Below, piece after piece: positions 8,629-39,608 of a stretch of DNA of 64,000 nucleotides. The notes beneath the pieces are model-generated. The model saw nothing but the letters and a program-made list of their open reading frames with translations. It was not told the origin of the DNA and ran no database searches. This stretch comes from Methanomassiliicoccus sp. GTDB taxonomy: Archaea > Thermoplasmatota > Thermoplasmata > Methanomassiliicoccales > Methanomassiliicoccaceae. A program made the position numbers and the translations under genes. Where the stretch lies: NCBI GenBank assembly GCA_012719175.1, contig JAAYAX010000004.1:434001-498000 (forward strand). Reading direction: 5' to 3'. Positions within the stretch are counted from its first letter, which is position 1, and every line of letters starts with the position of its first letter.

Positions 8629-8853
8629 CAAACTCGTCCGGATCGCACCTGCTTCGTGGAGCAGTTCACGGCCTCCCCACATCCATCGATCCTGCCCCTG
8701 GTCCCGCATGCCCGGTTAGATGGAAGAAAGGGATAGAAAAGGATTGTCCTGAGATATCGACAGTTCGAGAAGTGGGCGGGGGCAAGGTAGCGTGTAGGAA
8801 GGATAGGCCTGGTGCTGCGGACCGATCGGCGAGCGGCATCTATCCCTAATTGG

Positions 8854-16323: not shown

Positions 16324-16692
16324 TTGCACGCTTTGGAGACATCAAGGCTCTTGACGGAAGAATATTCGGCGAAGATCCTGCTAGCCACCATGGGTAAGGC
16401 GAAGAGCGCGTTCGAGCTTTCTGAGAAGCTTGGTATTCCCATTGCTGCATGCTATCGTAAGATCAATCTGCTCGAGTCTGCCGGTCTCATCTACTGCGAC
16501 GAGAGAAAGCTCACTCAGGCAGGAAAGAGGATAAACCTTTACAAAGCGCGCGTGAAGAACGCCCAGATCACCTTCGAGAAGAACAAGATCAAAGCAAAGA
16601 TAGAGATGATCGACGGCACCACAGAGGATTACAACTACAACATCGATATGACCGTCTTCATAAAAGAGGGTCAGAACATCATCGATCTGTAA
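16324..16692 (+). CDS. Winged-helix transcriptional regulator (paralogue A)
   Basis: The 122-residue protein has an ArsR-like winged helix at about residues 8-70. It comprises YSAKILLATMGKAKSAFELS, a recognition helix with IPIAACYRKINLLESAGLI, and a short wing. A basic beta-rich tail follows (QITFEKNKIKAKIEMID) and ends NIIDL. The start is TTG at 16324, as no ATG fits. The product is similar along its length to the one at 44812-45258 (ACYRKINLLESAGLI against TCYKLVEKMASLGLL, then similar tails). The ligand and targets are unknown. It converges with the epimerase gene. Confidence 0.78.
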   Translation: MHALETSRLLTEEYSAKILLATMGKAKSAFELSEKLGIPIAACYRKINLLESAGLIYCDERKLTQAGKRINLYKARVKNAQITFEKNKIKAKIEMIDGTTEDYNYNIDMTVFIKEGQNIIDL

Positions 16693-18877: not shown

Positions 18878-19423
18878 TCAACGCTCGATGCCGTCCCTCG
18901 CCGGAACGCCCTTGGTGAAGGGGTGTTTTATGCACTTCATCTCTGTAACCAGGTCCGCGATCTCCAGCAGCTGGGGGGGAGCATAACGGCCGGTCAGGAC
19001 CAGCTCCACACACGGGGGGCGGTTCTTGATGACCTTAACAACGTCATCTACGTTGACGAGGTCGAACTTAATGGAAACGTTCACCTCGTCCATGATGACC
19101 ATGTCATACTTGCCAGAGTGCATCAGCTCCTCGGCCTTACGAAGTGCGGCCTCGGCGGCCTCCTTATCCTCTGGCAACGGCTTCTCCGCGTTGACAAGGC
19201 AGTCCCTGCCCATAGGCAGCAGGGTGAAGTTGGGCAAGGATTTTGAGATCTCGTACTCGCCATAATACTGGGGGCACTTCATGAACTGTATCATGGCAAC
19301 GTTAAGGTCGTTGCCCATGGCCCGCAATGCCAGGCCCAAGGCCGCGGTGGTCTTGCCCTTACCATTGCCGGTATAGACATGAACAAGCCCCAGATTCTGC
19401 CGAATATCTTCCTTAACTGTCAT
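18878..19423 (-). CDS. cobA: Cob(I)yrinic acid a,c-diamide adenosyltransferase
   Basis: From ATG 19423 the product is 181 residues; a TTG two codons upstream is also possible. It has the P-loop GNGKGKTTAALGLALRA at about residues 18-34, then VAMIQFMKCPQYYGE, the acidic VIMDEVNVSI segment and VLTGRYAPPQLLEIADLVTE near the end. This is the CobA/BtuR/CobO family, which transfers adenosyl from ATP to reduced corrinoids to make the Co-C bond of coenzyme B12. It is not in the cbi cluster 10 kb away, but a 19-bp palindrome before it is the same as those before the cbi genes. Confidence 0.93.
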   Translation of the reverse strand: MTVKEDIRQNLGLVHVYTGNGKGKTTAALGLALRAMGNDLNVAMIQFMKCPQYYGEYEISKSLPNFTLLPMGRDCLVNAEKPLPEDKEAAEAALRKAEELMHSGKYDMVIMDEVNVSIKFDLVNVDDVVKVIKNRPPCVELVLTGRYAPPQLLEIADLVTEMKCIKHPFTKGVPARDGIER

Positions 19424-19435
19424 GATCAACGAACT

Positions 19436-19454
19436 CTTGGATTATCCATCCAAC
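19436..19454 (-). promoter_or_regulatory. GTTGGA-N7-TCCAAC palindrome before cobA
   Basis: On the minus strand the site reads GTTGGATGGATAATCCAAG, 12 nt before the cobA ATG. It matches the sites before cbiT and before the ABC binding-protein gene in length, spacer and most bases. A CTTTTA-like box lies just upstream, so the site would overlap the transcription start region. Confidence 0.7.
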
Positions 19455-19497
19455 TCAACGGCTAAAAGCTTACCGGTCGAAAGAAGTTCATATTCAC

Positions 19498-20562
19498 TCA
19501 CCATCCGTACCTGAGGCTCAGGAGGAGGGCATTGTAGAGTTGCCTGTACTTGCCCCTGGTGAGGTATGCCCCCAGCCATGACAGGGGGTTGCCGTCGACG
19601 CCCCTGGAAGCCTTCTGATAATCATCATCAGTCATCTTTCCGAGGCTGACGTATGCATCCATGAACCTCGCCGGGGACAAAGGCGTCCTGTCCCACCAGT
19701 TCTGGTAGGCCTGAGGCTTCCCGGAAGCGATGGCCTCGGCGGCCCGGCGTCCGGAGATCATGGATGTCCTGATCCCTCCCCAAGTAATGGGATTGGCCAT
19801 GGCTGCGGCGTCCCCGACGAGGTACACGCCCCCCCGCTCCACGCATCTCACCCCTCCGATGGGGATGTTCCTTCGATGGCGCTCCACGACCTCACCTTCC
19901 ACTGCGTCGGAGCCGCGGGGGAACCCCACACAGCACAGGTCTCCTGCGGGAAATTCCCAGCGGTAGCCCCCATGGTATCTCTCCTCCTGGATGAAGGTGA
20001 GCGTGTCCTTGCGCACCTGCTTGCGAACAAGGCATTGCTCCATCCTGAGCGTCACCGGAGGCTCCTCGCCGAAGAGCGATCTTCTGACCAGCGATCGTGA
20101 GCCATCGGCCGCGACAAGTTTGCGGGCTCGGATGGTCCTGCCATCAGTAAGGTAGAGCAAGGTTCCGTCACCGTCGCGAGCGACCGAGCCCAGCGCTGCC
20201 GTCTCCATCTCCCCGCCCAGGGAGCGGAAGCGGTCCGTTATCCCTTTCAAGAAGCCGGGGCGGTCCAGAACATATCCATGGCTTTTAAACTCAACATAGT
20301 TGCCCTCGGACCATTCGTCCCTCAGGTGCTTTATCCGGTGCAGAACGTTCTGGGGTTTCAGGGGTGCAAGGTCTCGGAACGCCGCCCTGGATATCGCCTG
20401 GCCACACATGCGGTGATACTTGGAGTACTTCTCGCCGGTGAGACGGTCCAGAAGGAGAACGTCCCTCTCAGGGTCTATCATCTTCAGGAAGAACGCGGCC
20501 GCTGCACCTGCGGGACCTGCCCCCACAACTACCGCTTCCCTATCCTCCATTCTCTGCGTCAT
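19498..20562 (-). CDS. Geranylgeranyl reductase-family flavoprotein
   Basis: The 354-residue protein has an N-terminal FAD dinucleotide-binding motif (VVVGAGPAGAAAAFFLK), the strand VLLLDRL, a middle region with LVAADGSRSLVRR and the second FAD motif VYLVGDAAAMANPITWGGI. These are diagnostic of the geranylgeranyl reductase family, which in archaea saturates the isoprenoid chains of membrane lipids or quinones. The length is close to the family norm. Adjacent genes are cobA and an iron-sulfur flavoprotein, both on the same strand. The exact substrate is undetermined. Confidence 0.85.
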   Translation of the reverse strand: MTQRMEDREAVVVGAGPAGAAAAFFLKMIDPERDVLLLDRLTGEKYSKYHRMCGQAISRAAFRDLAPLKPQNVLHRIKHLRDEWSEGNYVEFKSHGYVLDRPGFLKGITDRFRSLGGEMETAALGSVARDGDGTLLYLTDGRTIRARKLVAADGSRSLVRRSLFGEEPPVTLRMEQCLVRKQVRKDTLTFIQEERYHGGYRWEFPAGDLCCVGFPRGSDAVEGEVVERHRRNIPIGGVRCVERGGVYLVGDAAAMANPITWGGIRTSMISGRRAAEAIASGKPQAYQNWWDRTPLSPARFMDAYVSLGKMTDDDYQKASRGVDGNPLSWLGAYLTRGKYRQLYNALLLSLRYGW

Positions 20563-29157: not shown

Positions 29158-29176
29158 ATTGGACCATAGCTCCAAC
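29158..29176 (+). promoter_or_regulatory. GTTGGA-N7-TCCAAC palindrome, distal copy before cbiT
   Basis: The site reads ATTGGACCATAGCTCCAAC, with one change from the ideal half-site at the outermost base. It lies 34 bp upstream of a second copy and just before a TATA-like TTAAATAC (29181). Confidence 0.65.
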
Positions 29177-29191
29177 ACGATTAAATACTAA

Positions 29192-29210
29192 GTTGGATGA
29201 TTCCTCCAAC
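29192..29210 (+). promoter_or_regulatory. GTTGGA-N7-TCCAAC palindrome, proximal copy before cbiT
   Basis: The site reads GTTGGATGATTCCTCCAAC and ends 9 nt before the cbiT ATG, a few bases after the TATA-like box. It would overlap the transcription start, as expected for a repressor site. Confidence 0.75.
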
Positions 29211-29219
29211 TCTGATAAC

Positions 29220-29744
29220 ATGAAAGTGAGCGGAGGACCGACACAGGACGAGGTGATGGCCATTTCCTTGTTCAAACTGGCTTTGAGGGAAGGAGATATC
29301 ATGGCAGATGTGGGTTGCGGCACCGGTAAGGTATCCATCGAGGCCTCGAGAGCCTGTGCTCGGGTCTACGCTATCGACGTCAGGGACGAGGCGATAGCGG
29401 CCACCGCTCATAATGTGGCAGAGAACAACGCCCATAAGGTACAGGTGTTGAAAGGGAGCGCGAAAGAGGTGCTCCCGGAATTGGGAAGATTGAACGGGGC
29501 CTTTGTGGGAGGATCGCAGGAGCTGGAAGAGGTCCTACGCATTCTCACAGGCCAGGTTACAGGCAGGATTGTAGTGAACGCGGTTCTACTTCGGACACTC
29601 CAACGAGCGGTGTCCACGATGCAGGAGCTTGGCATCTTCGAGGAGGTCGTTCAGGTCTCTGTCTCTCGGTCATACTCTCTAGCTGATTCCTTCCTTTTCC
29701 GTCCCATCGACCCCGTGTACATAATTGTTGGTAGGTGCAAGTGA
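29220..29744 (+). CDS. cbiT: Cobalt-precorrin C15-methyltransferase/decarboxylase subunit
   Basis: From ATG 29220 the product is 174 residues. The earlier ATG at 29127 would place the tandem palindromes inside the gene and adds an unlikely Cys-rich leader. The protein has the SAM-binding motif MADVGCGTGKVSIEASRA at about residues 28-45, then VYAIDVRDEAIAA and a product-type GAFVGGSQELEEV. CbiT methylates C15 and decarboxylates the C12 acetate chain in the anaerobic B12 route. It is the first gene of cbiTLFGHCDEA, and its TGA overlaps the cbiL ATG. Confidence 0.93.
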   Translation: MKVSGGPTQDEVMAISLFKLALREGDIMADVGCGTGKVSIEASRACARVYAIDVRDEAIAATAHNVAENNAHKVQVLKGSAKEVLPELGRLNGAFVGGSQELEEVLRILTGQVTGRIVVNAVLLRTLQRAVSTMQELGIFEEVVQVSVSRSYSLADSFLFRPIDPVYIIVGRCK

Positions 29745-38487: not shown

Positions 38488-38506
38488 GTTGGATGGTACA
38501 TCCAAC
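38488..38506 (+). promoter_or_regulatory. GTTGGA-N7-TCCAAC palindrome before the binding-protein gene
   Basis: The site reads GTTGGATGGTACATCCAAC: perfect 8-bp arms with a 3-base centre. It ends 13 nt before the ATG at 38520, and a TATA-like TTTTAAAT lies about 25 nt before it. It is the most symmetrical of the four copies in this window. Confidence 0.78.
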
Positions 38507-38519
38507 TGGTGATAGGCAT

Positions 38520-39608
38520 ATGAAAAAAGGCATACTAGCGGCAGTAGCTGTCATCGTTGTCATTGCAGCGTCAGTGGGGGGATACGCCCTGCTGTCTGGC
38601 TCCAATGTCGGTGACGACCCGAGTTCCCAGTCCAAAGTGTATCCAAGCTCCGTAACGATCACCCAGAACGATGGAGAGAAGATTACGGTGGCGACCCCAG
38701 TGGAGAAGGTCGCCGTCGTCAACGTGAACGCTGCGGAGTTCATGCAGGTGCTGAACGTCACTGATCGCGTGGTCGGGATCAGCGAGTCCATCGCCGAGGA
38801 TGATGATTTCGGATACATCTACGAGGGTGTGGAAGTAGTCGGAACGTACAGTGAGCCCAGCGGTGAGAAGATCCTGGAGCTGGGGGCTAATGTGGTGATC
38901 GGTCAATGCACCAGCATGAGCATCAAGGATACGGCTGCCCTCGAGGACCTGGGGATCACCGTCGTTCTACTGGACTGCTACGGCCTTGACCAGATAACGT
39001 CAGACCTGGCGCAGCTGGCGAGCCTCTTCGGATTCGAGGCGCAGGAGAGGGCGGTGCAATACGCAGAGATGTTCAACGAGACCGTGGGCATGGTCACCGC
39101 TGCCAATGCCAGCATGGGCGAGGACGTCACTTGCTACATGGAGCTGAGCAATGGAAAGGCCTACACATCGAAGGCAGAGATGTCATCCCTGATCGACCTC
39201 GCGGGCGGGTACAACATAGTAAAAGTTCTGGTAGCGGACCCTACATCCTCTACCCAGCTGATCAGCAACGAGGCCATCATCGCCTATGACAACGGACTAG
39301 GTCCCGATTTCATCCTGGTCCGGGTAGGAGGCATAAATGATAATGCCACGGCTGAGCTGGAGTATCAGTCCATGGTAGGTCGGGCAGGGTGGAGCACTCT
39401 GAATGCCACACAGAGTGACAATATATTTATCATCACTCAGTCGGGAATCCTGTCGGGTCCTCGTGTCTATATAGGGATCGTGTATCTGACAGAAACGTTC
39501 CATCCAGGCGTGTTGTCTGTATCCGCGGATGAACTGCTGGCGGAATATAACCAAGCGTTCGGATATGACATCACTCCGATGATGGACTACCGCCATACTG
39601 CCACCTGA
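38520..39608 (+). CDS. ABC importer substrate-binding protein (Fe/B12 class)
   Basis: From ATG 38520 the product is 362 residues; the in-frame ATG at 38493 lies inside the palindrome and was rejected. It begins with a basic-hydrophobic anchor (MKKGILAAVAVIVVIAASVG) with no lipobox Cys, so it is probably held by an N-terminal helix. The rest is a two-lobed periplasmic-binding domain with VEKVAVVNVNAAEFMQVL, VVGTYSEPSGEKILELGANV and VVLLDCYG. It serves the permease and ATPase just upstream but has its own promoter and operator. A hairpin terminator follows. Confidence 0.88.
   Translation: MKKGILAAVAVIVVIAASVGGYALLSGSNVGDDPSSQSKVYPSSVTITQNDGEKITVATPVEKVAVVNVNAAEFMQVLNVTDRVVGISESIAEDDDFGYIYEGVEVVGTYSEPSGEKILELGANVVIGQCTSMSIKDTAALEDLGITVVLLDCYGLDQITSDLAQLASLFGFEAQERAVQYAEMFNETVGMVTAANASMGEDVTCYMELSNGKAYTSKAEMSSLIDLAGGYNIVKVLVADPTSSTQLISNEAIIAYDNGLGPDFILVRVGGINDNATAELEYQSMVGRAGWSTLNATQSDNIFIITQSGILSGPRVYIGIVYLTETFHPGVLSVSADELLAEYNQAFGYDITPMMDYRHTAT

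Follow-up and report, generated by a model that had tools for sequence, protein, structure and literature searches.

The gene cobA of Methanomassiliicoccus sp., which encodes a corrinoid adenosyltransferase, is unlinked to the cbi cluster in the stretch analysed here (the window, 64,000 nucleotides (nt) of contig JAAYAX010000004.1), and the same palindrome precedes both. The palindrome, TTGGAT-N5-ATCCAA, is probably the DNA operator of a dispersed corrinoid and cobalt regulon and would be bound by a homodimeric repressor; protein binding, repression and effector are all predictions from sequence. The putative operator is order-wide, and the window copy is one of many. Methanomassiliicoccales methanogens depend on corrinoid methyltransferases for methane formation, and the control of cobalamin synthesis in archaea that have no B12 riboswitch is, to our knowledge, still poorly understood.

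The cobA site and its setting comprise three features:
19437..19453, minus strand: operator-like palindrome TTGGATGGATAATCCAA of cobA (17-nt core), from sequence reading, the genome motif count and comparison across relatives
19462..19471, minus strand: TATA-like stretch AAGCTTTTAG, 8 nt upstream of the cobA site, of putative function, from sequence
18878..19423, minus strand: cobA (CobA/BtuR), corrinoid adenosyltransferase of 181 amino acids, PF02572 at E 4e-64 in a scan whose input started one codon after the ATG

Direct reading of the minus strand gives GTTGGATGGATAATCCAAG at 19454-19436, followed by AGTTCGTTGATC (12 nt) and the ATG at 19423-19421, and so confirms the sequence, the position and the 12-nt distance of the 19-mer that a preliminary description had placed in front of cobA. 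The motif is read on the cobA strand, where its core (19453-19437) lies 13 nt from the ATG and the leader runs AAGCTTTTAGCCGTTGAG-TTGGATGGATAATCCAA-GAGTTCGTTGATC-ATG. An A/T-rich stretch is found at the equal offset in other members of the genus Methanomassiliicoccus. Between the end of a same-strand gene (19498-20562) and the cobA ATG lie 74 nt, and this short gap holds both the site and the TATA-like stretch. Because this gene ends so close upstream, the separate promoter of cobA is a putative one.

The sister sites of the window and their genes are the following:
29193..29209, plus strand: operator-like site TTGGATGATTCCTCCAA of the cbi cluster, one mismatch, 10 nt to the ATG at 29220, from sequence and motif count
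29159..29175, plus strand: second, weaker site TTGGACCATAGCTCCAA, 34 nt upstream of the first cbiT site, from sequence
29220..29744, plus strand: cbiT, leading gene of the cbi cluster, TIGR02469 above its cut-off
38489..38505, plus strand: operator-like site TTGGATGGTACATCCAA of the BtuF-like gene, 14 nt to the ATG at 38520, from sequence and motif count
38520..39608, plus strand: BtuF-like substrate-binding protein (Peripla_BP_2), from a domain match

The sites at cbiT and at the BtuF-like gene had both been named before, and the corresponding 19-mers lie 9 and 13 nt from their start codons as claimed. The 34-nt spacing of the cbiT pair recurs in paired cbiT sites of related genomes.

The motif is far more abundant than base composition predicts. 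The 2.42-Mb genome holds 10 exact copies, with none for the reversed-pattern control, against a chance expectation of 0.08 per genome and about 2e-6 in the cobA intergenic gap. In the Methanomassiliicoccales, 128 of 147 genomes carry the motif, which totals 622 copies compared with 2 for the reversed pattern. Beyond the order, most genomes of its class or phylum have 0 or 1 copy, which is about background. The 69 sites that were oriented by their target genes give the extended consensus (A)(G/A)TTGGAT-G-WWW-C-ATCCAA(T/C)(T). Because the many copies are unlinked and have unrelated flanks, local duplication does not account for them, and the proposal of a shared, dispersed cis-regulatory element that links cobA with the cbi genes and those of B12 uptake holds. 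Two genomes of the class that fall outside the order each have one exact site (L141:3001 and L142:3001), which stands 26-29 nt ahead of a large protein; the two proteins are similar, and the one behind the L141 site has PQQ-type beta-propeller and PKD domains. These two sites hint at a regulator older than the order.

The genes behind the sites form a coherent set. Sites were counted as exact or one-mismatch copies, and about 130 exact sites were read with their neighbours in 20 further genomes of the order. In this genome, most sites precede corrinoid or tetrapyrrole genes:
this genome, window genes included: cobA, cbiT (which opens the cbi cluster) and two BtuF-like genes, each with a site upstream
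C6:14527: cobT, with a site upstream
C7:120557: cbiM, with a one-mismatch site
C4:46878: siroheme synthase/hemA operon, divergent from a short CbiX-like gene
C4:56023: cbiQ, about 430 nt further on

Further sites in this genome precede a zinc alcohol dehydrogenase gene with a TrpD-like gene behind it, a gene that resembles acetate transporters, and neighbours of a corrinoid methyltransferase cluster. In the 20 other genomes, sites are commonest at corrinoid, cobalt or tetrapyrrole genes; the targets include CobN, ChlI, CbiX/CbiK, CbiD, CobB/CbiA, CbiZ, CobT, CbiT, BtuF and CbiM, as well as FecCD with its ATPase and a B12-binding corrinoid protein. It is because of this target list that a corrinoid is proposed as the sensed signal.

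The same operator could instead answer to a metal (cobalt, or nickel or iron), a reading that is possible but rather doubtful. CbiM, CbiX, CobN and CbiQ handle cobalt, metal-sensing repressors are common, and a FUR-family gene shares a site with cobB in some relatives. However, BtuF, CobA, CobT and CbiZ act on complete or late-stage corrinoids and not on metal, this genome has no FUR, and its DtxR gene stands in a FeoB-like operon without a site.

The look-up of a regulator covered the sequence stretches around the sites and profile searches of chosen families. Among the neighbouring proteins read in this genome, none immediately behind a site was recognisable as a DNA-binding protein. In G010 and G012, a FUR gene and cobB diverge from an intervening site, and in G022 a FUR gene lies near cbiM (L126:3038-3460, L135, L232). 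FUR was rejected as the regulator of the whole set, with no FUR-family gene in this genome, G020, G001 or G030, all of which bear sites, in a search that was positive in 13 of 14 controls; the FUR gene, lost in this genome, is perhaps a second control layer of the metal type. Full-length DtxR is present in 12/12 site-bearing genomes tested and also in 5/10 genomes without exact sites. In most loci read, dtxR stands directly before a FeoB-like gene (assigned by eye from sequence), and no site with one mismatch or fewer lies upstream of the dtxR/FeoB-like genes in these loci, so DtxR is better explained as an iron regulator and is an unlikely candidate here. MarR_2 is uninformative, being present in every genome tested, and a winged-helix gene at 16324-16692 of the window and a helix-turn-helix protein in L085 were not placed as targets.

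Repression is proposed because of where the sites stand. In the preliminary description, the similar distances of three sites to their start codons were taken as a fixed position; this fails as a general rule, with distances in the genome ranging from 6 to 114 nt. Placement is fixed relative to the putative TATA box, in two arrangements. Around the 69 oriented sites, runs of six A/T start preferentially 22-32 nt before the site, with a peak at -31 (19/69 sites, compared with typically 3-4 at other offsets), and a smaller peak lies at -12 to -7, the class to which cobA and cbiT belong. The archaeal TATA box usually lies about 25-30 nt from the transcription start, so the site would fall between the two, or would overlap the start and the initial bases of the transcript. 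Either position would block polymerase and neither suits an activator, which agrees with a repressor operator. That the bound protein is an activator is accordingly improbable: archaeal activators usually bind upstream of the TATA box, and these sites lie downstream of a TATA-like box, over or beside the start. Where sites are paired, their spacings fall mainly into two groups, 26-39 nt and 66-72 nt, which correspond to about three and seven turns of the helix (reversed control, 0-2 pairs), as at 29159/29193 in the window, at 8787/8859 in L018, at 8175/8245 in L023, and in L127, L229 and L230. Such spacings suggest cooperative binding on the same face of the DNA, or looping.

In the proposed mechanism of repression, a homodimeric DNA-binding protein would bind TTGGAT-N5-ATCCAA, whose half-sites are 11 bp apart, about one helical turn. 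It would occupy the DNA that separates the TATA box from the transcription start, or cover the start, and would there block the recruitment or the escape of polymerase. The response would most likely be to corrinoid sufficiency, with synthesis, adenosylation and uptake shut off together.

An inverted repeat near a start codon might also act as an RNA hairpin, be it an attenuator, a terminator or part of a riboswitch, and this is very improbable. Changes in the arms include no compensating case in which pairing is kept, compared with 24 sites that tolerate a single pair-breaking change; the loci were gathered by exact matches, which inflates the count of exact sites but favours neither type of change. 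Since the letters of the arms and not their pairing are conserved, the element would act as DNA. The cobA leader folds no better than its shuffles (z +0.42), its predicted fold does not include the palindrome, and the leader contains no T run and no terminator-like element. No Rfam family matches within the window, and the cobalamin riboswitch RF00174 is found in 0/61 genomes of the order by a search that was positive in 8/14 control genomes. Moreover, the expected transcription start lies within or after the site.

At cobA itself, the genus keeps the operator-like site faithfully. Perfect arms stand at the same place in 6/6 cobA genes of the genus, and a comparison of four divergent members (the close sister genome left out) finds invariant columns at 12/12 arm positions, 0/5 of the spacer, 5/40 upstream and 2/13 downstream. 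Judged by this pattern, the cobA site is genuine and selection maintains it in the genus, as a lineage-specific part of the predicted regulon. Three findings weigh against the operator reading. The first is that the element is at the promoter of 0/23 cobA genes read outside the genus, where the best match has at least three mismatches and one upstream region is incomplete. Orthologues without the site despite sites elsewhere had been named as the observation that would count against a cobA element; this is the case for all 23 genes outside the genus, as in G010 with its seven exact sites elsewhere, and for none of the six within it. The second is that 19 of the 147 genomes of the order have no exact site, and the third is that some of the sites lie ahead of genes with no obvious corrinoid function (acetate transporter, alcohol dehydrogenase, surface proteins and unknowns). 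Since the arms are kept in cobA of the genus and absent from the 23 other genes, cobA appears to have joined an older regulon. The simplest reading is that the common ancestor of the genus acquired the site at cobA, which would have added adenosylation to that regulon; loss of the site elsewhere may be the alternative. A chance palindrome or functionless repeat, which the shortness of the motif and the site-less cobA orthologues outside the genus might favour, is practically discounted by the more than 100-fold enrichment, the controls at zero, the coherent targets and the arms kept beside diverged flanks at cobA.

Several gene families with less familiar roles recur behind the predicted operator. 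In gut-type genomes (for example G030, G072 and G094), sites stand ahead of NifH/NifD-like fusion genes, and others ahead of CobN, ChlI and FecCD/ATPase genes (L101:6804-9820, L221, L223, L237, L243, L247, L219, L238, L241). These genes look like a so far undescribed tetrapyrrole or corrinoid chemistry, placed under the same operator. The zinc alcohol dehydrogenase with a site recurs in two families of the order (L018:6608-8859, L128, L132, L196, L206, L214, L229), and in L018 and its relatives a TrpD-like phosphoribosyltransferase gene comes next; the pair is possibly a pathway for the lower ligand of cobamides. A divergent radical SAM/amidohydrolase pair with one or two intervening sites occurs in several genomes (L122, L127, L235, and L198). 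A secreted family of about 440 amino acids with a dockerin-like start often stands directly behind a site beside FecCD genes (L090, L098, L101, L113, L118, L119, L218, L222, L246). The one member of this family that was scanned has no Pfam match, and the family is a candidate extracellular corrinoid-binding protein. A tentative extension of the repressor model is that an archaeal transcription factor, from a family new to corrinoid sensing, binds cobalamin directly and governs the corrinoid economy of the Methanomassiliicoccales in place of the riboswitch, and that the zinc alcohol dehydrogenase with the TrpD-like gene, the radical SAM/amidohydrolase pair and the NifH/NifD-like genes with CobN serve further corrinoid or tetrapyrrole chemistry.

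An order-wide operator would offer a handle by which its regulator can be found, and it predicts a regulon with unannotated genes that are likely cobamide-related; the genus-only cobA site would illustrate the recruitment of a gene to a regulon. No prior description of the motif was found in openly searchable papers; the subscription literature and regulon databases lie beyond these, so that an earlier prediction may exist.

Among known systems, the element has the features of a transcription-factor operator, namely a palindrome at unlinked promoters of one pathway and a fixed placement relative to the predicted promoter core. FUR-family regulators are likewise dimers with palindromic operators, but a FUR gene is not present in every site-bearing genome. 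Archaeal DtxR-type iron repressors are also metal-responsive dimers on palindromic operators, but the sites of a DtxR regulon at its own operon and at iron uptake genes are not seen in the loci read. In Halobacterium salinarum, TrmB controls cob/cbi genes through a palindromic site (PMC3794607); it is a sugar-responsive activator, and its authors infer a further regulator of cob/cbi (PMC3794607). By this published description, the two systems share the protein-based control of archaeal cobalamin genes via a palindrome. In contrast to the TrmB site, the present one overlaps the promoter core, and its targets are corrinoid-specific. The bacterial B12 riboswitch regulon (RF00174) has largely the same targets, with B12 synthesis, adenosylation, B12 and cobalt uptake, and a chelatase. 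It acts through a conserved cobalamin-binding leader RNA, which has no counterpart in the genomes of the order searched, whereas the element described here is a DNA palindrome at the promoter. A DNA switch together with a predicted protein thus apparently does the job of the bacterial B12 riboswitch in this order.
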